Shown: one piece after another, positions 34,218 through 53,922 of the stretch | How the letters are laid out: every line of letters begins with the position of its first letter | Numbering within the stretch: position 1 is the first letter of the stretch | NCBI RefSeq assembly: GCF_007097485.1 | Contig: NZ_VKDE01000003.1 | Span: 124,001-188,000, forward strand | Direction of reading: 5' to 3' | Length of the DNA stretch: 64,000 nt | From: Carboxylicivirga sp. M1479 | GTDB lineage: Bacteria; Bacteroidota; Bacteroidia; Bacteroidales; Marinilabiliaceae | Position numbers and translations under genes: made by a program | Notes under the pieces: model-generated | The model's database searches: none | Told to the model about the DNA's origin: nothing | The model's input: the letters and a program-made list of their open reading frames with translations, nothing else

Positions 34218-34703
34218 ATGATGAATTTTCCTAAGCAGCTAAGTGCACCGCAATTGTATTCCATGGTTGCGCTTCGCATTCTTCTTGGTTGGTACCTGCT
34301 CTACGAGGGGCTGGCTAAGTTGTTCAGCCCTCACTGGTCATCATTTGGCTATTTAAAAAGCTCACAGGGATTCTTAAGTGATTTCTTTATTGGTATTGCC
34401 GATAACTCGGCGCTAGTAGATGTAATTAATCTACTTAATATATGGGGTCTAATTGCCATTGGTTTGGCGCATGTTCTAGGTTTGTTAGGCCGTTTTTCTT
34501 CACTAATGGGAGTTCTCCTTATTAGCTTGTATTATTTGGCACACCCACCCTTAATTCATGTCAATGAAGTGCTTCTTTCCAATGAAAATACACTGTGGGT
34601 CGATAAGAATTTGATATTCATCAGTGTGCTTTTTGTGTTGTACCTATTCCCCACCAGTCGGGTTATTGGTCTTGATCGTTTCATATTTTACAAAAAAGGT
34701 TAG
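34218..34703 (+). CDS. DoxX-family integral membrane protein
   Basis: A 161-residue protein with four predicted membrane helices and a DoxX-like beginning (ALRILLGWYLLYEGLAKLF), then ALVDVINLLNIWGLIAIGLAHVLGLLG and LIFISVLFVLYLFP. DoxX-like proteins relate to quinone-linked membrane oxidoreductase subunits such as the thiosulfate:quinone enzyme DoxD/DoxA, though most members are uncharacterised. The stop codon touches the next start, so it is translationally coupled to a twin-arginine oxidoreductase. A role in passing electrons from that exported enzyme to the quinone pool is an attractive but unproven inference. Confidence 0.8.
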   Translation: MMNFPKQLSAPQLYSMVALRILLGWYLLYEGLAKLFSPHWSSFGYLKSSQGFLSDFFIGIADNSALVDVINLLNIWGLIAIGLAHVLGLLGRFSSLMGVLLISLYYLAHPPLIHVNEVLLSNENTLWVDKNLIFISVLFVLYLFPTSRVIGLDRFIFYKKG

Positions 34704-34705
34704 TG

Positions 34706-36256
34706 ATGGGTGATGATGCGAAGAAATTCACAAGAAGAGATGTTGTTAAAACATTAGCAACTGTACCTGTACTAGGTGCTTTGGGATATGGGGTTTTAAA
34801 AAAGATAGAACATCAGAAGCAACAAAAATATAACATAGCTGACGACTTGGGTTTGAACCTTTACGATGAACCCGATAGGCTATCATCCAAAGGTGGTCAT
34901 ACCATTCGATTAGGAATCATTGGAGCAGGTGGCCGTGGCAGATATTTGCTCGAAGCGGCAGGTTTTGCTCATCCCAATAAGGTAAAGCATTGGCACGATC
35001 AGTCTTTAAGCAATAAAACCGATACGCGTTTTGGTGATTATATGGCTCAGGATGATTTAAATATTGAAATAAGGGGCGTTTGCGATATTTTTGATGTACA
35101 TGCCGAGGAGGCCATGTTCTCTGCCAGTAATGCAGTTAAGGCTACCGTCATTGATGAAGTATCACCTCAGGTAAAGCGTTATAAAAACTACCGCGACTTA
35201 CTAAAATCGGATGATATAGATGCCGTTATTATTGCTACGCCCGACCACTGGCATGCACAAATGGGCATTGATGCCGCCAAAGCAGGAAAGCATATTTACA
35301 TAGAGAAAGGATTAACCCGGACAGCTGATGAAGCTTTTGCACTAAGAGAGGCGGTAAAGACCTCAGGTGTTGTATTTCAACTGGGGCATCAAGGCCGCCA
35401 AACCGCCAGCTTTAACAAGGCCAAGCAATTGATCGATAGAAATATTCTGGGCAAGATATCGTTGATTGAGGTTTGTACCAACCGTAATGATCCCAATGGA
35501 GCTTGGGTGTACCCCATTCATCACCAGGCGAATGAAAAAACAATAGATTGGCAACAGTTTGTGGAGCCAACGAATGATCATCCGTTTAGTGCCGAACGCT
35601 TTTTCCGTTGGAGATGCTGGTGGGATTACGGTACTGGCCTGGGAGGCGATTTACTAACCCATGAATACGATGCCATCAACCAGGTGTTGCAATTGGGAAT
35701 TCCTCACTCGGCCGTTGCTTCTGGCGGTATTTATTATTACAAAGATGGGCGTGAGGTGCCAGATGTGTTTCAGTCGGTGTTTGAATATCCTGATCGTGAA
35801 TTAACATTGATTTACAGTGCATCTTTGGCCAACGATAATTATCGTGGAAAGGTAATAATGGGTCACGATGGCACCATGAGGATGGAAAATAAACTGGAGA
35901 TATATCCTGATAGTCAATCGACCCAATACAGAAAACAGCTTAATGCTGGATTAATAAAGCCAGATGAGCCGATGATTACCTATGAACCAGGACGAAATAC
36001 TTTGGATGGCACCACGTCGGCCACAGAGCAATATTTTGCCAGTCGTGGTTTACTATACACCCATGTACAGGGTAAACGAGTTAATACAGCTCATCTGCAT
36101 ATAAAAGAATGGTTAGATGGAATTAGAGCTAACAAGCAACCGAGCTGTGATATCGATCAGGCCTTTGAAGAGGCCATAACTGCACACATGGCAACCATTG
36201 CTTATCGCGAAAACCGAAAAGTCTACTGGGATGCTGAAAAAGAACAGATTATATAA
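34706..36256 (+). CDS. Exported Gfo/Idh/MocA oxidoreductase (twin-arginine signal), first copy
   Basis: The ATG at 34706 directly follows the DoxX stop (a GTG at 34703 overlaps it); the product is 516 residues. The N-terminus FTRRDVVKTLATVPVLGALGYGVL fits a Tat signal without an obvious AxA cleavage site, so it may remain anchored. The Rossmann motif GIIGAGGRGRYL is near 70 and the family Lys in IEKGL near 200 (EKG rather than EKP). The C-terminal alpha/beta domain contains FRWRCWWDYGTGLGGDLLTHEYDA. The family oxidises or reduces sugar hydroxyls with NAD(P). Being exported, it would need a tightly held cofactor, as in glucose-fructose oxidoreductase. Its partners downstream suggest oxidation at C3 of a glucoside. 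Confidence 0.9.
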   Translation: MGDDAKKFTRRDVVKTLATVPVLGALGYGVLKKIEHQKQQKYNIADDLGLNLYDEPDRLSSKGGHTIRLGIIGAGGRGRYLLEAAGFAHPNKVKHWHDQSLSNKTDTRFGDYMAQDDLNIEIRGVCDIFDVHAEEAMFSASNAVKATVIDEVSPQVKRYKNYRDLLKSDDIDAVIIATPDHWHAQMGIDAAKAGKHIYIEKGLTRTADEAFALREAVKTSGVVFQLGHQGRQTASFNKAKQLIDRNILGKISLIEVCTNRNDPNGAWVYPIHHQANEKTIDWQQFVEPTNDHPFSAERFFRWRCWWDYGTGLGGDLLTHEYDAINQVLQLGIPHSAVASGGIYYYKDGREVPDVFQSVFEYPDRELTLIYSASLANDNYRGKVIMGHDGTMRMENKLEIYPDSQSTQYRKQLNAGLIKPDEPMITYEPGRNTLDGTTSATEQYFASRGLLYTHVQGKRVNTAHLHIKEWLDGIRANKQPSCDIDQAFEEAITAHMATIAYRENRKVYWDAEKEQII

Positions 36257-36299
36257 GTACCCTATAAACCCGATTATTAATCACCCTTAATTTTAAAAC

Positions 36300-37784
36300 A
36301 TGAACAATAACAAAAAACGGCTTGAAATGGATCGGCGTCAATTTTTAGCCAACGCAGGAATAGCTACAGCCGGTTTGGTAATGATGCCTTCTATGGCAGC
36401 AGCACAAAAACGTAAAAAATCAAAAAATGACAAGTTAAATATTGCTGGCGTTGGCGTTGGCGGAAGAGGTTTTGGTGTACTAAAAGCTATGGAAAGTGAG
36501 AACATAGTAGCACTTTGCGATGTGGATTGGAAATATGCTAAATCATGCTTTGCCTACTTTCCAAAGGCCAAGCAGTATTGGGACTGGCGCCAAATGTTTG
36601 ACGAAATGGGTGATGATATTGATGGCGTTGTGGTGGCAACAGCTGATCATACCCATGCCATTATTGCAGCTACAGCCATCACCATGGGTAAACACGTATA
36701 TGTTGAAAAGCCTTTAACACACACGGTTTATGAATCGCGCTTGCTAACGAAATTAGCCGCTAAACATCAGGTGGCTACTCAAATGGGTAACCAGGGTGCA
36801 TCTGGTGAAGGGGTGGCTTTAACAACTGAATGGATTCAGAATGGCGAGATTGGTGAGATACGTAAAGTAGAAGCGTTTACCGATCGTCCAATATGGCCAC
36901 AGGGCTTAAACAGGCCAACAGAGGAGCAGCCTATTCCGGATACTTTCAATTGGGATTTATTTGTTGGTCCAGCTAAAATGCGACCATTTAATGAGATTTA
37001 TACACCATGGAACTTTCGTGGCTGGTGGGATTTCGGTACCGGAGCATTGGGCGATATGGCATGTCATATCTTGCACCCTGTTTTTAAAGGTCTTAAACTG
37101 GGATATCCTACTAAGGCACAGGGTAGCTCTTCGTTATTGTTGACTGATGCAGCGCCTGTTGCACAAAAAGTGCGATTGGTATTTCCAAAGCGTAAGGCAC
37201 TTGCTAAAGTAGCCATGCCTGAAGTGGAAGTGCATTGGTACGATGGTGGTTTACAACCATTGAAGCCTGATGGCTGGCCTGCAGGAAAGGACATGAATAA
37301 TCAAGGTGGAGGAGTACTCTTTCATGGTTCAAAAGATACTTTGGTATGCGGATGTTACGGTCGCGACCCTTGGTTGCTATCTGGTCGTGTGCCTGATGTT
37401 CCTAAATCAGAACCACGCATCAGCATAAGTCATGAAATGGATTGGGTAAGAGCTTGTAAAGAGACACCTGGTTCGCGTACAGAAACCTTATCTCCATTTA
37501 GTGAGGCAGGTCCATTTAATGAGATGGTGGTTATGGGGGTGTTGGCCGTGCGTTTGCAGTCACTTAATAAAGAGCTCGAATGGGATGGCGAGAATATGCG
37601 TTTTACGAACATTGGCGATGATGAAACGATTAAAACAGTCATCAGTGATGGTTTTAAAATTCACGATGGGCATCCTACTTTTGATAAAGAATGGACCAAG
37701 CCCGTTAATGCCAATGCCTTTGCCCAGGAGCTTATCAAGCATAAGTACCGCGACGGCTGGACTTTACCCGAAATGCCTGCTTAA
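36300..37784 (+). CDS. Exported Gfo/Idh/MocA oxidoreductase (twin-arginine signal), second copy
   Basis: A 494-residue paralogue of the preceding gene. The Tat signal is MDRRQFLANAGIATAGLVMM with likely cleavage at MAAA-Q. NAD(P)-binding appears as NIAGVGVGGRGFG, followed by the catalytic-site VEKPLTHT (E136, K137) and a WNFRGWWDFGTGALGDMACHIL segment in the C-terminal domain that parallels the WWDYGTGLGGDLL of the first copy. The two enzymes may oxidise the sugar and then reduce the keto product, as proposed for 3-keto-glycoside pathways with paired oxidoreductases (family knowledge plus inference). The gap to the first copy is 43 bp; downstream is a REP-like element and then the DUF1080 gene. 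Confidence 0.92.
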   Translation: MNNNKKRLEMDRRQFLANAGIATAGLVMMPSMAAAQKRKKSKNDKLNIAGVGVGGRGFGVLKAMESENIVALCDVDWKYAKSCFAYFPKAKQYWDWRQMFDEMGDDIDGVVVATADHTHAIIAATAITMGKHVYVEKPLTHTVYESRLLTKLAAKHQVATQMGNQGASGEGVALTTEWIQNGEIGEIRKVEAFTDRPIWPQGLNRPTEEQPIPDTFNWDLFVGPAKMRPFNEIYTPWNFRGWWDFGTGALGDMACHILHPVFKGLKLGYPTKAQGSSSLLLTDAAPVAQKVRLVFPKRKALAKVAMPEVEVHWYDGGLQPLKPDGWPAGKDMNNQGGGVLFHGSKDTLVCGCYGRDPWLLSGRVPDVPKSEPRISISHEMDWVRACKETPGSRTETLSPFSEAGPFNEMVVMGVLAVRLQSLNKELEWDGENMRFTNIGDDETIKTVISDGFKIHDGHPTFDKEWTKPVNANAFAQELIKHKYRDGWTLPEMPA

Positions 37785-37792
37785 TATAGTGA

Positions 37793-37903
37793 AACAACCA
37801 CCTCCCCTCGCTTAAAGCGAGGTACTCCTCCTTGAAAAGGAGGAGAGTAGTGCCATAATTCCCCTTCTTTATAAGCTGGGTGCCGACAGGTGGGGAGGTT
37901 TAG
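37793..37903. repeat. REP-like palindromic element inside the operon
   Basis: Outer arms CCTCCCC (37801-37807) and GGGGAGG (37892-37898) enclose two perfect hairpins: CCTCGCT/AGCGAGG (37806-37822) and the 9-bp CTCCTCCTT-gaa-AAGGAGGAG (37825-37845). The remaining text (AATTCCCCTTC..., GGGTGCCGACAGGTGGGG) is of the kind I recall as dispersed repeats in many Bacteroidota genomes. It fills almost the entire gap between the second oxidoreductase and the DUF1080 gene. Confidence 0.7.
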
Positions 37904-37934
37904 TTTTGTTAATATGAATCTTAAAAGCAATAAT

Positions 37935-38681
37935 ATGAAATACCTATTAATAGTTGGATTAATGTTAGCGGTGATGTCATCGTGCTGTGATAAATCACAA
38001 GAGATAAATACACTAAGTAAAGAAGAGAAAGCCGATGGATGGCAGTTGTTGTTTGATGGCAAAACGTCTGATGGTTGGCGTAATTATGGCAAAACTACAT
38101 TTCCTGATGGATGGGATATAACTGAAGATGGAACAATCCATTGTCCTGGTTCGGGACGTGGTGAAGCGGGAGGAAAAGACCGTGGCGATATTATTTATGG
38201 CGATAAGATGTTTGGGAATTTTCACTTGAAACTTGAGTGGAAAATATCTGAAGGAGGAAACTCTGGTATATTTTATTTAGGTCAGGAGAGCGACTCACTG
38301 GATTATATCTGGAAGACAGCACCGGAAATGCAAGTGCTGGACAATGAAAAACATCCTGATGCCAAGGCGGGAATTGCTGGCAATCGTCAAGCTGGTTCAT
38401 TGTACGATTTGTACCCCGCTGTGCCTCAAAACGCTAAGACAGCTGGAGAGTGGAATACGGTAGAGATTAAGGTTTACAAAGGTTCTGTATGGCACATCCA
38501 AAATGGAGAAACAGTGGTTGAATACCACCTGTGGACACCGGAGTGGAACAAGTTGGTGGCAGGTAGTAAGTTTCCATCGCTTAACCCAACATGGGCCGAT
38601 GTGGCTTCAGAGGGATACATTGGTCTTCAGGATCATGGTGATGATGTGTGGTTCAGAAATATTAAAATAAAGGAGTTATGA
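37935..38681 (+). CDS. DUF1080 (3-keto-disaccharide hydrolase family) lipoprotein
   Basis: The longest frame starts at 37890 inside the palindromic element. The ATG at 37935 gives a lipoprotein signal (MKYLLIVGLMLAVMSSC) and is chosen; the product is 248 residues. The DUF1080/3-keto-disaccharide hydrolase jelly roll spans nearly all the mature chain: DGWQLLFDGKTSDGWRNYG, FHLKLEWKISEGGNSGIFY, APEMQVLDNEKHP and the terminal GYIGLQDHGDDVWFRNIKIKEL. Members cleave glycosidic bonds in substrates oxidised at C3, by elimination rather than classical hydrolysis (family knowledge). Here it sits after two oxidoreductases and overlaps the start of an isomerase-like gene, the expected pathway order. Confidence 0.88.
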   Translation: MKYLLIVGLMLAVMSSCCDKSQEINTLSKEEKADGWQLLFDGKTSDGWRNYGKTTFPDGWDITEDGTIHCPGSGRGEAGGKDRGDIIYGDKMFGNFHLKLEWKISEGGNSGIFYLGQESDSLDYIWKTAPEMQVLDNEKHPDAKAGIAGNRQAGSLYDLYPAVPQNAKTAGEWNTVEIKVYKGSVWHIQNGETVVEYHLWTPEWNKLVAGSKFPSLNPTWADVASEGYIGLQDHGDDVWFRNIKIKEL

Positions 38682-39526
38682 TGCGTTTTGCTTTAGTCTT
38701 AGGCATTCTATTGGTTTCAATGCCTACAATCAATATAAGAGCTCAAGAGGTGAAAAAGAACATTGGAATTCAATTGTGGTCGGTTCGTGATAACATGAAA
38801 ACGGATGCAGATGGTACCATTAAGCAATTGGGTAATATGGGCTACACCTTTATTGAGGCAGCAGGTTATGCCGATGGTAAATTCTACGGTATGGAGCCAC
38901 AGGATTTCAAAAAACTGTTGAACGCTAATGGCTTGCAATTTACCGCATCGCACTGTGGTAAAGCATTACCCGAAAAAGAGGATTGGGACACAGTTATGGC
39001 GTGGTGGGACGAATGTATTGAAGCGCACGCTAAAGCAGGTGTTACGTACCTTGTTCAGCCATTTATGGATAAAAAAGGATATGGCTCACTGGCAGACCTC
39101 AAACGTTATTGCGATTACTTTAATCAAGTGGGCGATAAGTGCAATGCCAAAGGTATTCGTTTTGGATATCACAATCACGATAAGGAGTTTGGCGAAGTAG
39201 ATGGCCATATTCGATACGATTACATGCTAAAAAATACGGATCCTGAAAAGGTGATGTTTCAATTAGACCTGTATTGGATAATGGTGGGTGGCAAAGAGGC
39301 CGCTCAATATTTCGAGAACTATCCTGGGCGTTTTGAACTGTGGCACGTCAAGGATGAAAAAGAGCTTGGTGAAAGTGGAAAGATGGATTTTGAATCTGTG
39401 TTTAAGTTGAAAAAGAAAGCAGGTATGAAAGAGATAATAGTAGAGGTGGAGCGTTATAGTTATGAGCCCTTGGTTAGTGTAAAAAAGAGTTTGGAGTTTT
39501 TAATTGAAGCATCATATGTTAATTAA
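38678..39526 (+). CDS. Secreted sugar isomerase/epimerase-like TIM barrel
   Basis: A 282-residue AP-endonuclease-2/xylose-isomerase-like TIM barrel with signal peptide (MMRFALVLGILLVSMPTINIRA-Q). Metal-ligand regions are visible: FIEAAGYADG, GYHNHDKEF, FQLDLYWIMVGG, LWHVKDEKE and the late IIVEVER. Its ATG overlaps the DUF1080 stop by 4 bases and follows a strong AAAGGAG Shine-Dalgarno, rare in Bacteroidota, so it is translationally coupled. In related clusters this family acts as a keto-sugar lyase, hydratase or isomerase on 3-keto-glucosides; here the reaction is inferred from context. A strong terminator follows. Confidence 0.88.
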   Translation: MMRFALVLGILLVSMPTINIRAQEVKKNIGIQLWSVRDNMKTDADGTIKQLGNMGYTFIEAAGYADGKFYGMEPQDFKKLLNANGLQFTASHCGKALPEKEDWDTVMAWWDECIEAHAKAGVTYLVQPFMDKKGYGSLADLKRYCDYFNQVGDKCNAKGIRFGYHNHDKEFGEVDGHIRYDYMLKNTDPEKVMFQLDLYWIMVGGKEAAQYFENYPGRFELWHVKDEKELGESGKMDFESVFKLKKKAGMKEIIVEVERYSYEPLVSVKKSLEFLIEASYVN

Positions 39527-48387: not shown

Positions 48388-51300
48388 ATGAGCAAATTAA
48401 TATTAAAATATTTATTTAGTACAATCTCTGTATTTATACTATTAGGGCTTGTCGCTAATGCTCAATCTACGGACTATGATTTTTATTCTTCATTAGAGGA
48501 AGAACCTATACCGAAGATTTATCAGGGTGAACCGGCTGCAGTGCCGCCCCAATTAAAAGGTACAAGTACGTTTGTGGAAATTGGTGAATTTTCAGGTTGG
48601 AGCAACGGGATGATACCATTAAACCAGCATTCTGATTGTACGCTATCTCAAACCATTTATTTTCAAAGTGAAATTAACGTAAGAAATAAACGGATTAAGA
48701 GTTTATATTATTATGTAGTTGGTGAGGAAAACTGGTCGAATACTACTGAAATATATATGGGCCACACCAAAGCTACTGAGCTTGAGAGGGGGCTTTTGCC
48801 TGCTGAAAATTTCACGCGTGTATTTAAGGGTGAGATATCCACATCCACACCAACTGGATGGTTAAAGATTGATTTAACCTACCCCTTTGAATACAATAAC
48901 ACCGATAATTTAGTAATTGCATGGGTAGATAATGATCAGATTAATATTGTACCTTCCTATTTTTACCTCACAGCAACGGGGGAAAATGATCTTGGTCCCT
49001 TATTATCTTTCAGAGATTTTGGTGTTTCTCCAAGACCCTTTGGAACACATGAAGAGGGCGGGAGACCATGGAATAGCAGACCAGATGTCCGCATTGAGTT
49101 TGAGGATATCCCTGCAAGGCCTATATTACAATATACACCTGAAAAATTAGACATTGTTTATTTTTCAGATATTGGTGAAATACCTACAGAAACAACAAAG
49201 CAGCATTCGTTTGATTTAAAAAACCTTGGTAATACAGCAGTAACCATCAATGGGCTGGAGTTTGATGAGTTACAGGATGAGTATGCATACGATGGCGGTA
49301 ATATAACGTTAGCTCCCGGCCAGACAGAGAGTATTCCCATTAGTTTTACACCATCTGCACGTGGTGACTATTATACCAATGTAAAATTGATTACAGATAT
49401 CCCTGTTGATGGCGACTCTACGATTGTATTACGATCAACTGTATACCCGCGCGGCCATTTATACCAGGGCTGGGAACACACCACTATAGAAGATTTTCCC
49501 GGGAATCATTGGACCTTCAGTGAGAATGATATACCGTTTGAAGAGGTGTTAAATAACTGGAGGCTAGGATATGATGATTACCCTGAAGCATTTTCTTATG
49601 ATCGCTATAACTTATTAATGACTGTTTACACCGATTATGTAGATACATTAATAACACCAGCCCTTGATATACAGGCCGGAGGGATGGACAGCATTACCTT
49701 TTATGGTCGTTCGCATTCTTATGGAAATTCTTCGATGCCAATTGTTATTTCTAAAGATAAAGAAAATTGGTCACTACTTGAGGAAATCGAATTTGAAGAG
49801 TGGGATCTTCTAGGGGCTTATCCGCAAGATAGGTTCAAGAGATATTCAATTAACTTTCCGGATTCAATAGTTGGTAAGCATTATATTGGCTTTGTTAGCA
49901 AAGGTAATATGGCATACCTTGACAAGATAGAAGGGCCAAAACTGTTTATTTCTGATGCTGATCTATTGATAGCCTCATTAGAGGCTGATAATGCGCTGGC
50001 CTTGGATAAGGATAATGTCTTTACCCTGACCATTGAGAATCTTGGTTTACCTGTTGGTTATAGTGATTATACCATACAGTTATTTGATGCCAATAGTCCG
50101 GATGTGCCGATCAAAGAAATGCCTGGCGAAGCCATTGATATACTGAGTAAAGTAAGTGTTGATTTTATCTGGCATCCCACTGTAGAGGGAGCCTATGATA
50201 TCTTCTTTAAGATTTTATTGACTGGTGATGAGCAACCAGAAAATAACCTATCCGAGATAGTGCCAGTTAATGTGTATGATGGTAATTTAGAGGGGTATGA
50301 GGTTAATGGAGGAGAGGATGAGTCGGATGTTTATTATCCGATGAATTTTAATTTCATGGTGAATTTGGCACAAGGTATTTATTTCCCCGATGAATTGAGT
50401 TTTGGTAAAACTGAGATTTATGAAATGAATTTTGAAGTGGATGTGGATGGTTTTGTTCCTGGTCAGAAATTTAAAGTCTGGATTGGAGAGACGGAAAAAG
50501 AAAGTCTTGAAGATGGTATGATTCCGGCTTCGGAATTGACATTAGTATACGAAAGTGATAGTATCGATTTTCAACCAGGTAAGCAAACTATACGTGTTCC
50601 GTTTAAAGAGCCTTATCAATACACTGGTAAAAACCTTGTATTTATGCTTCATAAACAGATGGTTAAATCATGGTACAGTGGTTTAACGGAATATAAAGTA
50701 AGCCATACACCGGAACGAGCCAATAGAAGTGTTAGTTACCTGGCCCGTTATGAAGATGCTGATCCTTATAATCCACCAAGTGGCAAATTGGTTTGGAACC
50801 CTAATGAAACGACCTATCAGCAACACTTTTTAAGTTATTATATGGATGCTACCTTCTTTTTTAATAAAGAAGGATTAGGCGTCGTAGATGGCAAAGTGAC
50901 TGATGTAGAAGGAGTGGCTATAGAAGGTGTTAAGATTACGGAACGAGCTTCAACTATAAAAGCAATAAGTGACGAAAGTGGATTTTATCAGTTTGATTAC
51001 CTTAATGAAGGCCCCACTACGTTTAATGCTATTAAGTTTGGTTATAGTGATTTAAGCAATGATGTATTTGTTGCAGGTAATTACTATCAGAACGTTGACT
51101 TAATAATGCATCAAAGGCCAAAGTATGAAGTAATAGGTCGCCTTGTGGATTTTCGCAATCAACCGATTAATGAAGCTTTAATTACTTTAAATGGTTACGA
51201 TTTATACACCGGAAGTACCGGTGTTGATGGGGTGTTTTTTGATGATAGTGATACTTCAAATATAAAAGCATATAGTAGTACGCAACCATATGTACTTCGC

Positions 51301-53922
51301 ATTGAAAAATATGGATATGAAGATTACTATGATACAATAGCAATTGAAGATGCTGCTATTAATCTTGGAGATATTCAGTTAACAGAGATTACGGGGCATA
51401 ATGCCGAAGTTAAAGCTAGCGTTGCTGCTACCGGAGAAGACATGAATATTAACTGGACTTCACCCAAACCGGCGTTAGCACATTATTTCAGGTACGATTC
51501 AGGCCTGCTTCATGATGAGCCGAACTACATCGGGTATACATCCTCAGATAAGGCCTTAATTGGAAATGCTTTTAAGAATGAAGCATTAATTACAGATATC
51601 GAGTTTTATTTATATGATTCGAAAAGAACAGAATCGTTGAAAATATTTATCCTTGGATTAAATAGTATTGGGGCTCCAGATAAGGATAATATATTATATG
51701 AGTCTGACTCAATTAATGTTATTAAAAACGATTGGAATAAGTTTACTCTTGAAACGGCCGTCTATGCCGAAAATGGATTTTTTGTAGGATTTAATTGTGC
51801 TGGTTTCTTAGGCCTTGGAAAATGTCAGAATACCGAAGAATATCCATTTCAGAAGAAATCAAACTATTTAAGTGCGAATGTTGATGATCGTGAATTTATT
51901 GGTCATTTCTTTCCACTTGAACTAGACTTAAAAACGCCAAATGAAAATTTTATGGTGAGGGCCAATGGCTACAACTATGGCAGCCTTAGCTATGATTTTC
52001 TTCCATCAACTGAAAATAAAAGCCTCGTTCAGCAAACGATGCTTAAATCAGCTGCTCAACTAAAAGCTGGTGAGGTTGATAGCTATACTTTATATCGTTT
52101 CTCCAACGAGCATATTAATAATCCGGAATTATGGACATTAGTCGCTGAGAATTTAACGGATACCTTTTATGTGGATACCGAGTGGAACAATTTATCCCGG
52201 GGAAGTTATCGTTATGCGATAGAAAGCAAATTCAATACTGGTCATCAGAGCTTTAAGCGAAAGTCTAATGTCGTAGGAAAGGATATGAGCCGTGAGCTTG
52301 AAATTAATGTAACTCTTCCTGATAAAATGTTAAATGAAGCTACAATGGTGAAATTAACAAGAATCGACATTTTTAATGGAGAAAGTGTTGTTCTTAATGG
52401 TGCAAGTTCACAACTAAGAACGAACTTGTGGCGAGGTAGTTTCAAATTGGAGGTGACACATCCTAATTGCGTTAAATACATTGAAAATATAGACTTAAAC
52501 GTAAGTGAAGGGACGTTTATTAAGGATGTTACGCTTGAAAACGCCCTTTATGCTCCGGTTAATGTTGATGCGAAGGTTAGTAGCAATAATAGTATTGACT
52601 TAATGTGGGAAAGTTACCCTTCTGATACCATTCAATATGATGATGGATCCGTTGAGTACGGTTTCTTTTTCTTGCCGGGCAATATTGGTGAGTTTGGTAA
52701 TAGATATCACACAGATACCCCAATAGTCATTAAAGAGTTGTTGGTATATAGTTATGAGCATTTATATACTCTATCAGGTAATAAAGTTACTGCACGCATA
52801 TACAATGCACAACATGAGTTACTAGCCGAGAGTGCATCGTTTGAACTTTCGTTAAACGGTTGGACAACTGTCAGTATACCTAATATAAAGGTATACGATA
52901 CCTACTATGTGATGGTTAGTTGGGACGATTTTATCAAGCCAACGGCATTGCTGGCATTAGATGCAAATGGTTCATTAGCTCATGAGAATGAAGCTGCAGT
53001 GGTTAAAGATGAAATGAATTTCTTTAAGGAGTTCGGTTCTGTTGGAGGCCGAAGCGGTGCATTCTTAATACGACCAATCGCGCTTAGTGGAGCCGAGGAT
53101 CTAAAATCAAACTCATTAAAATCAATAACGACTGACCACGATAGAGAAGGTGTTGAATACCTGGCACCTGTATTCTTGGAGCATGAGGCCAGCATAAGGG
53201 CCACAGAACCTAAGCCCAAGACAATGCTGAAGTCTACTATTGAAACCTATCATGTTTATCAGGATGATATGTCAATACCTTATTATTCTGACCTTATTGG
53301 AAAAGGATTCTCGTTTGATAATATCAATGCGCAGCAATATACACTCGGGGTCTCGCAGGTTAATCTGTGGGGCGAATCAGATATCGCTGCGATAACGGTT
53401 GAATTTGATGGTTCTAAAAGTGATGCCACACTCGAATCGTTTAGTCTTGATGGCGTTAAGTATACAGGATTTGCACCTGACAAGTTTAATTACATTATAG
53501 GTGTTGATGATCATGTAAATGTGTATCCAACAGTGACAGCAATTGCTAAGGATTATGAAGGCGCGACAGTAACTATTACCGGAGGTGATACTGAGGAATA
53601 TGTTAATATACACGTATTGGCTCAGGATAAGTTGACCAGCAATACCTATTCAATATTGTTTACCAAGAAAACAGGAGTAGAGGATACTCAGCTTGATAAA
53701 ATTAAAGTCTACCCAAATCCTGCAAAAGGTATGGTGTATATCGAAAATGCCGGAGCATGTAATGTCGAAGTCTTTAATATGTCGGGAGTGGTTGTTTTAA
53801 AACGTAAAGTATCTGACAGAGGAGAGATCAACCTAAGCTCTTGTGCTGAAGGAGTATACTTCATGCATTTCACTGATGCTTATGGATATACAAGAGTTAA
53901 GCGCCTTGTCAATCTAAAATAA
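48388..53922 (+). CDS. Giant modular T9SS-sorted surface protein (1844 aa)
   Basis: A secreted protein with signal peptide (ILLGLVANA-Q). Visible modules: an N-terminal beta-sandwich (about 60-240); an Ig-like domain (about 245-350); a choice-of-anchor/MAM-like domain starting GWEHTTIEDFPGNHW (about 360-525); a CARDB-like domain (about 530-645); a second beta-sandwich (about 645-830); two carboxypeptidase-regulatory-like repeats (about 832 and 913); two further sandwich modules (about 1010-1210 and 1390-1580) separated by FnIII-like stretches; a cadherin-like beta-sandwich (about 1678-1755); and a C-terminal type A sorting domain (VYPNPAKG, about 1768-1844). No catalytic motif was found. Homologous modules occur in the next two proteins. 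It is probably a surface adhesin or substrate-binding scaffold. Confidence 0.85.
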   Translation: MSKLILKYLFSTISVFILLGLVANAQSTDYDFYSSLEEEPIPKIYQGEPAAVPPQLKGTSTFVEIGEFSGWSNGMIPLNQHSDCTLSQTIYFQSEINVRNKRIKSLYYYVVGEENWSNTTEIYMGHTKATELERGLLPAENFTRVFKGEISTSTPTGWLKIDLTYPFEYNNTDNLVIAWVDNDQINIVPSYFYLTATGENDLGPLLSFRDFGVSPRPFGTHEEGGRPWNSRPDVRIEFEDIPARPILQYTPEKLDIVYFSDIGEIPTETTKQHSFDLKNLGNTAVTINGLEFDELQDEYAYDGGNITLAPGQTESIPISFTPSARGDYYTNVKLITDIPVDGDSTIVLRSTVYPRGHLYQGWEHTTIEDFPGNHWTFSENDIPFEEVLNNWRLGYDDYPEAFSYDRYNLLMTVYTDYVDTLITPALDIQAGGMDSITFYGRSHSYGNSSMPIVISKDKENWSLLEEIEFEEWDLLGAYPQDRFKRYSINFPDSIVGKHYIGFVSKGNMAYLDKIEGPKLFISDADLLIASLEADNALALDKDNVFTLTIENLGLPVGYSDYTIQLFDANSPDVPIKEMPGEAIDILSKVSVDFIWHPTVEGAYDIFFKILLTGDEQPENNLSEIVPVNVYDGNLEGYEVNGGEDESDVYYPMNFNFMVNLAQGIYFPDELSFGKTEIYEMNFEVDVDGFVPGQKFKVWIGETEKESLEDGMIPASELTLVYESDSIDFQPGKQTIRVPFKEPYQYTGKNLVFMLHKQMVKSWYSGLTEYKVSHTPERANRSVSYLARYEDADPYNPPSGKLVWNPNETTYQQHFLSYYMDATFFFNKEGLGVVDGKVTDVEGVAIEGVKITERASTIKAISDESGFYQFDYLNEGPTTFNAIKFGYSDLSNDVFVAGNYYQNVDLIMHQRPKYEVIGRLVDFRNQPINEALITLNGYDLYTGSTGVDGVFFDDSDTSNIKAYSSTQPYVLRIEKYGYEDYYDTIAIEDAAINLGDIQLTEITGHNAEVKASVAATGEDMNINWTSPKPALAHYFRYDSGLLHDEPNYIGYTSSDKALIGNAFKNEALITDIEFYLYDSKRTESLKIFILGLNSIGAPDKDNILYESDSINVIKNDWNKFTLETAVYAENGFFVGFNCAGFLGLGKCQNTEEYPFQKKSNYLSANVDDREFIGHFFPLELDLKTPNENFMVRANGYNYGSLSYDFLPSTENKSLVQQTMLKSAAQLKAGEVDSYTLYRFSNEHINNPELWTLVAENLTDTFYVDTEWNNLSRGSYRYAIESKFNTGHQSFKRKSNVVGKDMSRELEINVTLPDKMLNEATMVKLTRIDIFNGESVVLNGASSQLRTNLWRGSFKLEVTHPNCVKYIENIDLNVSEGTFIKDVTLENALYAPVNVDAKVSSNNSIDLMWESYPSDTIQYDDGSVEYGFFFLPGNIGEFGNRYHTDTPIVIKELLVYSYEHLYTLSGNKVTARIYNAQHELLAESASFELSLNGWTTVSIPNIKVYDTYYVMVSWDDFIKPTALLALDANGSLAHENEAAVVKDEMNFFKEFGSVGGRSGAFLIRPIALSGAEDLKSNSLKSITTDHDREGVEYLAPVFLEHEASIRATEPKPKTMLKSTIETYHVYQDDMSIPYYSDLIGKGFSFDNINAQQYTLGVSQVNLWGESDIAAITVEFDGSKSDATLESFSLDGVKYTGFAPDKFNYIIGVDDHVNVYPTVTAIAKDYEGATVTITGGDTEEYVNIHVLAQDKLTSNTYSILFTKKTGVEDTQLDKIKVYPNPAKGMVYIENAGACNVEVFNMSGVVVLKRKVSDRGEINLSSCAEGVYFMHFTDAYGYTRVKRLVNLK

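Follow-up and report, generated by a model that had tools for sequence, protein, structure and literature searches.

What a small membrane protein of the DoxX family does beside an exported sugar-dehydrogenase-type enzyme is the question raised by five genes of Carboxylicivirga sp. M1479, a member of the Bacteroidales. The genes lie in a 64,000-nucleotide stretch of contig NZ_VKDE01000003.1 (hereafter the window, to whose positions coordinates refer), and a first-pass annotation had read them as a possible oxidative route for glucan oligosaccharides outside the cytoplasm. All five open reading frames (ORFs) were found in the claimed order, doxX, gfo1, gfo2, DUF1080 and TIM barrel, on the plus strand, spanning 34218-39526. 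The arrangement of the first two is not due to chance and is conserved in several phyla, as the conservation counts given below establish, and a role of this pair in quinone-linked electron disposal is plausible from predicted fold, topology and gene fusions. The features of the module are as follows, with signal peptides and the lipobox read by eye.

doxX, 34218..34703, plus strand: four-transmembrane-helix membrane protein of the DoxX family, in a distinct subfamily (PF07681, 28.7 bits, cut-off 23.6)
gfo1, 34706..36256, plus strand (ORF listed from GTG 34703): Gfo/Idh/MocA dehydrogenase with an apparently uncleaved twin-arginine anchor (PF01408, 61.6 bits)
gfo1 membrane anchor, 34733..34807, plus strand: RR, a short hydrophobic segment and KK
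gfo2, 36300..37784, plus strand: BT2158-type glycoside 3-dehydrogenase with a cleavable-looking twin-arginine translocation (Tat) signal (NF058561, 878.1 bits, cut-off 750)
DUF1080/3keto-disac_hyd, 37935..38681, plus strand (ORF listed from GTG 37890): putative lipoprotein (PF06439, 173.4 bits, cut-off 26.8)
TIM barrel, 38678..39526, plus strand: xylose-isomerase-like protein, apparently secreted (signal by eye), for a putative elimination or hydration step (PF01261, 67.6 bits)

Conservation of the doxX-gfo1 pair

Two sets of gfo1 loci underlie the counts: 80 named loci, which are the best 80 of 288 relatives, and 100 fetched loci, 12 of which repeat another locus, leaving 88 that are distinct. 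doxX adjoins gfo1 in 96 of the 100 fetched loci and stands directly upstream of it in 85 of the 88 distinct ones, with a median gap of 8 nt and a gap of at most 60 nt in 93 of the 96. L046 is a real miss, in which a sugar-phosphate isomerase-like gene occupies the place of doxX; for the misses L094 and L130 the sequence begins at the end of a contig, and the same is true of L093, which duplicates the sequence of L085. By the titles of their records, the loci belong to Bacteroidota and members of that group, Chlorobiota, Aminicenantes, Neomarinimicrobiota/Marinimicrobia and Gemmatimonad groups. Pairwise distances across 22 loci, uncorrected for shared descent, correlate with r = 0.80 for doxX and gfo1, 0.69 for gfo1 and gfo2, and 0.57 for doxX and gfo2. 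The tight coupling of doxX to gfo1 described by the first-pass annotation also holds in the window, though GTG 34703 is probably not the gfo1 start, since the methionine of gfo1 relatives aligns with the ATG at 34706, two bases past the doxX stop.

The link is equally visible from the side of DoxX, when a profile of the subfamily is run against 395 genomes of the phylum and 295 of the order. Nine genomes of the phylum sample match, including that of the window, and gfo1 lies downstream in all nine loci, the eight other gfo1 proteins being at 43-46% identity. The subfamily occurs in 65 genomes of the order sample, where 101 rows were listed and 91 read, corresponding to 90 loci (G716 fills two rows); left out were the row of the window's own genome and nine rows whose open frames are 405-555 residues long. 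Among these 90 loci, gfo1 is directly downstream of doxX in 61 and upstream in 2 (L225, L226), while DoxX forms an in-frame fusion in 24 and a broken fusion in 1 (L228). With the broken fusion counted, DoxX is paired with gfo1 or fused to another enzyme domain in 88 of the 90 loci, and the claimed linkage of DoxX to the first oxidoreductase is thus borne out from both directions. The exceptions are L224, with no partner, and L209, in which a transposase-like gene (895-2673, recognized by eye) directly follows doxX at the place expected for gfo1. Seventeen genomes under other phylum titles were chosen because they held a locus; 16 of them yield 21 DoxX hits, only 5 of which are additional, and gfo1 adjoins 20. 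The remaining hit, L248, pairs the DoxX subfamily in swapped order with a divergent Gfo (25% identity to gfo1), so that the partner enzyme can vary.

In the fusions (L172-L191 and further loci), DoxX is followed by an RR-hydrophobic-K/R anchor like that of gfo1 and then by a domain of about 300 residues. This domain shows a weak aldo/keto reductase likeness in 2 of 19 members and has no convincing match among solved structures; the designation aldo/keto-reductase-like is a lead and not an assignment. Three of 19 fused DoxX members weakly match HTTM. In one fusion locus, L190, a 3-keto-disaccharide hydrolase gene lies just upstream.

A plasmid search returned one record covering at least 80% of gfo1, that of Parabacteroides distasonis (L132; NZ_OY725768.1, listed as a 388-kb plasmid). 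Here a BT2158-like gfo2 (65% identity), DUF1080 (51%), DoxX (38%) and gfo1 (52%) stand in a row, and cytochrome bd oxidase genes lie beside the module on the other strand. With a version present in the record of this gut bacterium, the system becomes testable in a cultured relative.

Genes of the 3-keto-glycoside route

Genes three to five are not new: judged by their sequences they are close relatives of the known 3-keto-glycoside route, and the match to 3-keto-sugar cleavage clusters made by the first-pass annotation is right for them. gfo2 is a member of the NCBIfam BT_2158 glycoside 3-dehydrogenase family and matches PDB 8tdf with 787.6 bits, the DUF1080 protein matches PDB 3osd, 8tda and 8rr2, and the TIM barrel matches PDB 8tcd, 8tcs and 8tct (phmmer E 1.2e-78). 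The 8TC and 8TD entries presumably stem from a 2024 Nature paper on the non-hydrolytic pathway, and the solved enzymes matched by the DUF1080 and TIM-barrel proteins are those that we take to belong to the BT2156-BT2160 pathway of Bacteroides thetaiotaomicron, which cleaves glucosinolates and disaccharides in the gut. By this likeness, the products of gfo2, DUF1080 and the TIM-barrel gene would oxidize C3, eliminate the aglycone, rehydrate the intermediate and then reduce it, all in the periplasm. The window differs from the Bacteroides cluster in that gfo1 lies outside the BT_2159 family (21.7 bits against a cut-off of 650) and in the addition of doxX, a gene of which the available portions of the papers on the cluster make no mention.

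The accessible text of PMC11300592 calls BT2158 a periplasmic glycoside 3-dehydrogenase and describes a mutant without growth on trehalose, leucrose and palatinose, and that of PMC12385236 has the BT2159-BT2156 operon also converting glucosinolates; the accessible text of PMC9007349 proposes a periplasmic location for a DUF1080 protein in the vicinity of the LacABC enzyme, itself periplasmic. The first-pass annotation had presented the export of the components as the new point, but with a periplasmic location already on record for BT2158, export is not what is new here. LacABC, the lactose 3-dehydrogenase of Caulobacter, consists of a flavin enzyme of the GMC family plus a cytochrome and is not known to involve a Gfo or DoxX, whereas gfo1 and gfo2 are both Gfo/Idh/MocA proteins without a GMC match in the Pfam scan. 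What the two systems would share is membrane-bound periplasmic oxidation followed by cleavage, the step for which PMC9007349 proposes a DUF1080 protein.

The core 3-keto pathway does not need the doxX-gfo1 pair: 60 related genomes contain 31 BT_2158-family genes, of which 19 lie away from the pair and 12 beside gfo1 (positions compared by coordinates, by hand). Conservation of the whole five-gene module likewise does not hold. The survey of co-occurrence that the first-pass annotation had proposed gives a divided result: DoxX goes with gfo1, but gfo2, a 3-keto-hydrolase-type ORF and a TIM-barrel gene are all near the pair in only 17 of the 80 named loci. With weak and fused examples included, a 3-keto-hydrolase-type ORF is near the pair in 48 of the 80; flanks of at least 4.5 kb on both sides are available for 44. 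In one locus (L036 and L056) the TIM-barrel gene is broken into two ORFs.

A second layout recurs in seven loci of Aminicenantes and Neomarinimicrobiota (L099, L106, L113, L114, L123, L124 and L126), in the order doxX, gfo1, a Nuc_H_symport/LacY-like transporter of the MFS type, a Gfo without a signal, and a signal-bearing TIM::3keto-disac_hyd fusion. Its domains were scanned in L099, L113 and L123, the other loci being placed by clustering, and six more loci (L096, L104, L105, L110, L127 and L130) carry it in part. There is no BT2158-type gene in the fetched stretches of the second-layout loci, to which the search of those genomes was confined. Here periplasmic oxidation would fall to the pair and cytoplasmic reduction to the second Gfo. 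Of the functional hints that 3-keto glycosides are the product of the pair, this layout is the strongest.

Anchor, fold and a proposed electron route

gfo1 opens with a twin arginine, found in each of the 88 aligned sequences long enough to include it; a short hydrophobic segment containing an invariant proline and glycine comes next, followed by a K/R-rich stretch. Over 66 sequences the median length of the charge-free run is 16 residues and the next 8 residues hold a mean of 3.3 K/R, and the whole fits the Tat motif S/T-R-R-X-F-L-K as it stands in the accessible part of PMC3383694. The stretch is probably uncleaved in most members, because an AxA pattern follows it in only 10 of the 66. The Tat signal of gfo2, by contrast, looks cleavable (...MAAAQ, by eye), a distinction that the earlier description of two twin-arginine Gfo enzymes had not made. 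TatC is encoded in the genome. For DoxX, loop charges put both termini in the cytoplasm, and the second anchor would consequently place the catalytic domain of the DoxX fusions in the periplasm too. In the predicted topology the conserved residues E30, K34 and W40 are at the periplasmic end of helix 1; R20 is conserved as well, while the alignment has no conserved cysteine or histidine.

AlphaFold2 models were obtained for DoxX (pLDDT 89) and gfo1 (pLDDT 85). The gfo1 model resembles 1,5-anhydrofructose reductase, DgpA and NAD-dependent glycosidases (Z 33-34), and E201, K202 and H320, which include the catalytic lysine and histidine, are invariant in 89 sequences, with the catalytic aspartate at 97%. 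A conserved aspartate after strand 2 (98%) suggests, from what is known of the family, that gfo1 uses NAD rather than NADP. The glucose-fructose oxidoreductase (GFOR) of Zymomonas shares this fold (Z about 32); it is exported by Tat with bound NADP and is soluble, without a known membrane partner, whereas gfo1 is probably retained at the membrane, with DoxX as its partner.

The DoxX model matches the membrane part of the vitamin-K-dependent carboxylase GGCX (Z 9.8, 128 residues aligned, rmsd 3.4; Z 7.8 for the menaquinone-4 epoxide entry). No Foldseek match to the model was found at E 0.001 or better, and the DoxX profile gave nothing useful against the sequences of solved structures. The window's protein can be compared with DoxX/DoxD proteins, known from thiosulfate:quinone oxidoreductase (TQO) and a mycobacterial membrane redox complex, and with HTTM/GGCX, through its Pfam match and, tentatively, the likeness of its modelled fold to the membrane part of GGCX; TQO and GGCX use quinones. 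It differs from the DoxD of TQO in that no NCBIfam family, the DoxD/TQO model included, is found at E 0.01 and DoxD is not among the Pfam matches at E 0.01, and in that its partner is a sugar-dehydrogenase-type enzyme.

We tentatively favour, with somewhat less than even confidence, a membrane-tethered NAD-type dehydrogenase from which DoxX passes electrons to quinone, and which in some bacteria is attached to the 3-keto-glycoside pathway. Its own twin-arginine anchor would keep gfo1 at the periplasmic side of the membrane, in a physical complex with the four-helix DoxX, and the NAD(H) of gfo1 would stay bound as a prosthetic group. The bound NAD+ would accept a hydride from a C-OH group of the sugar, probably that at C3 of a glycoside; DoxX would relay the electrons from bound NADH to a membrane quinone, and the 3-keto product would pass to the DUF1080 and TIM-barrel enzymes, whose chemistry is known for relatives. 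The core pathway is itself redox-neutral, the bound NADH later reducing the 3-keto sugar; the pair would add an electron exit that pulls C3 oxidation forward, and in some other bacteria it may stand in for the BT2158-type enzyme. A redox-neutral glycan-cleaving route would thereby become able to feed respiration, nicotinamide enzymes would be seen to work outside the cytoplasm without free NAD, and the widespread and poorly understood DoxX family would gain a testable job. A broader version, which we consider possible although doubtful, is a modular chassis in which a quinone-reducing DoxX unit and a twin-arginine anchor carry exchangeable nicotinamide-type enzymes outside the cytoplasm, Gfo/Idh/MocA proteins as separate chains and aldo/keto-reductase-like domains as fusions. 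Such a chassis, if real, would represent a novel class of respiratory dehydrogenases, delivering sugar electrons to quinone by means of NAD(H) bound in the periplasm. Within the open-licence literature searched, nothing joins DoxX to Gfo/Idh/MocA proteins or 3-keto-glycosides, and the pair and its fused cousins appear to be undescribed.

Several observations weigh against the favoured reading. The same literature searches brought up no earlier case of DoxX accepting electrons from NADH. In structure the DoxX model comes closest to the receptor assembly factor NACHO (Z 11.8, 119 residues aligned, rmsd 3.3), and matches of helical bundles with Z under about 13, as all of these are, may reflect no more than a shared arrangement. 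Fusions of DoxX to a Gfo were not seen, and in 28 of the 80 named loci the pair has no other pathway gene nearby (9 of these with at least 4.5 kb on both sides, 19 with short flanks). In the order sample, MenD was counted at E 1e-30 (106 genomes, 100 over the cut-off) and MqnC at E 1e-60 (122 genomes, 92 over the cut-off; the weaker matches may, we assume, be the related MqnE). MenD or MqnC is present in 48 of 65 DoxX-positive and 174 of 230 DoxX-negative genomes (Fisher p 0.75), a test of little power because most genomes carry such genes. Cytochrome bd is present in 13 of the 17 DoxX-positive genomes without MenD or MqnC, and a MenA-like match in 16, of which 6 are over the cut-off. The role of the pair may be wider than the operon of the window, since it does not track menaquinone genes and stands alone in some well-covered loci.

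Much of this would also fit a DoxX that handles no electrons and serves as a dedicated membrane scaffold or assembly partner, with gfo1 balancing bound NAD(H) between two sugars in the manner of GFOR. The likeness to NACHO, the resemblance of gfo1 to GFOR, the missing conserved cysteine and histidine and the lack of a menaquinone association all point this way; gfo1 already has its own anchor, however, the invariant charged and aromatic residues of DoxX seem to exceed the needs of a scaffold, and loci without a BT2158-type enzyme nearby would need an electron exit or a second sugar. We regard this explanation as unlikely, though a serious competitor. Still less probable is a general periplasmic dehydrogenase acting on another substrate, such as an inositol, a uronic acid, an amino sugar or an envelope sugar, and recruited beside 3-keto genes in some genomes only. 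The loci in which the pair stands alone, including those with full flanks, are consistent with it, as are sampled neighbours such as an M23 peptidase, a beta-lactamase-like protein, an ion channel and a rhamnosidase. The frequency of 3-keto-hydrolase-type ORFs near the pair argues against it, and so does the recurrence, in Aminicenantes and Neomarinimicrobiota, of a separate operon with a TIM::3-keto-hydrolase fusion.

The direction of the reaction and the bond between the two genes bear on the remaining explanations. Since the pathway needs a reduction step and sequence cannot tell direction, the pair might run in reverse, with quinol electrons reducing 3-keto sugars in the periplasm; menaquinol is, by standard potentials, too weak a donor for NAD, and other genes of the locus can reduce, which leaves this very improbable. 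A reading in which doxX lies by accident beside a standard redox-neutral 3-keto-glycoside operon would agree with the status of gfo2, DUF1080 and the TIM barrel as full relatives of solved enzymes, and with the BT2158-family genes that lie apart from the pair. The conservation counts contradict it, doxX and gfo1 being paired in 85 of the 88 distinct loci and, when the search starts from DoxX and fusions are included, in 88 of 90; we give it the least credence of all.

Gene layout and surroundings

Downstream of the pair, 43 bases separate gfo1 from gfo2. The likely start of the DUF1080 gene is the ATG at 37935, 150 bases past gfo2, and leads into a lipobox-like ...MSSC (by eye); the start of the TIM-barrel gene overlaps the DUF1080 stop. 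Upstream of the module lie SusD, GH5, two GH16 and two GH3 genes, and because of these a beta-1,3-glucan/laminarin locus is plausible, in agreement with the surroundings proposed by the first-pass annotation. Its tie of the module to glucan oligosaccharides in particular finds nothing to support it, and a general laminarin link of the pair was rejected: a GH3 gene like that of the window precedes the pair in only 5 of 9 related loci of the same genus (L052-L059, L131). Downstream follow genes for an ECF sigma factor, FecR, a TonB-dependent receptor and SusD, and beyond this set, at 48388-53922, a very large protein (1844 aa) with a C-terminal tail of the Por secretion type is encoded.

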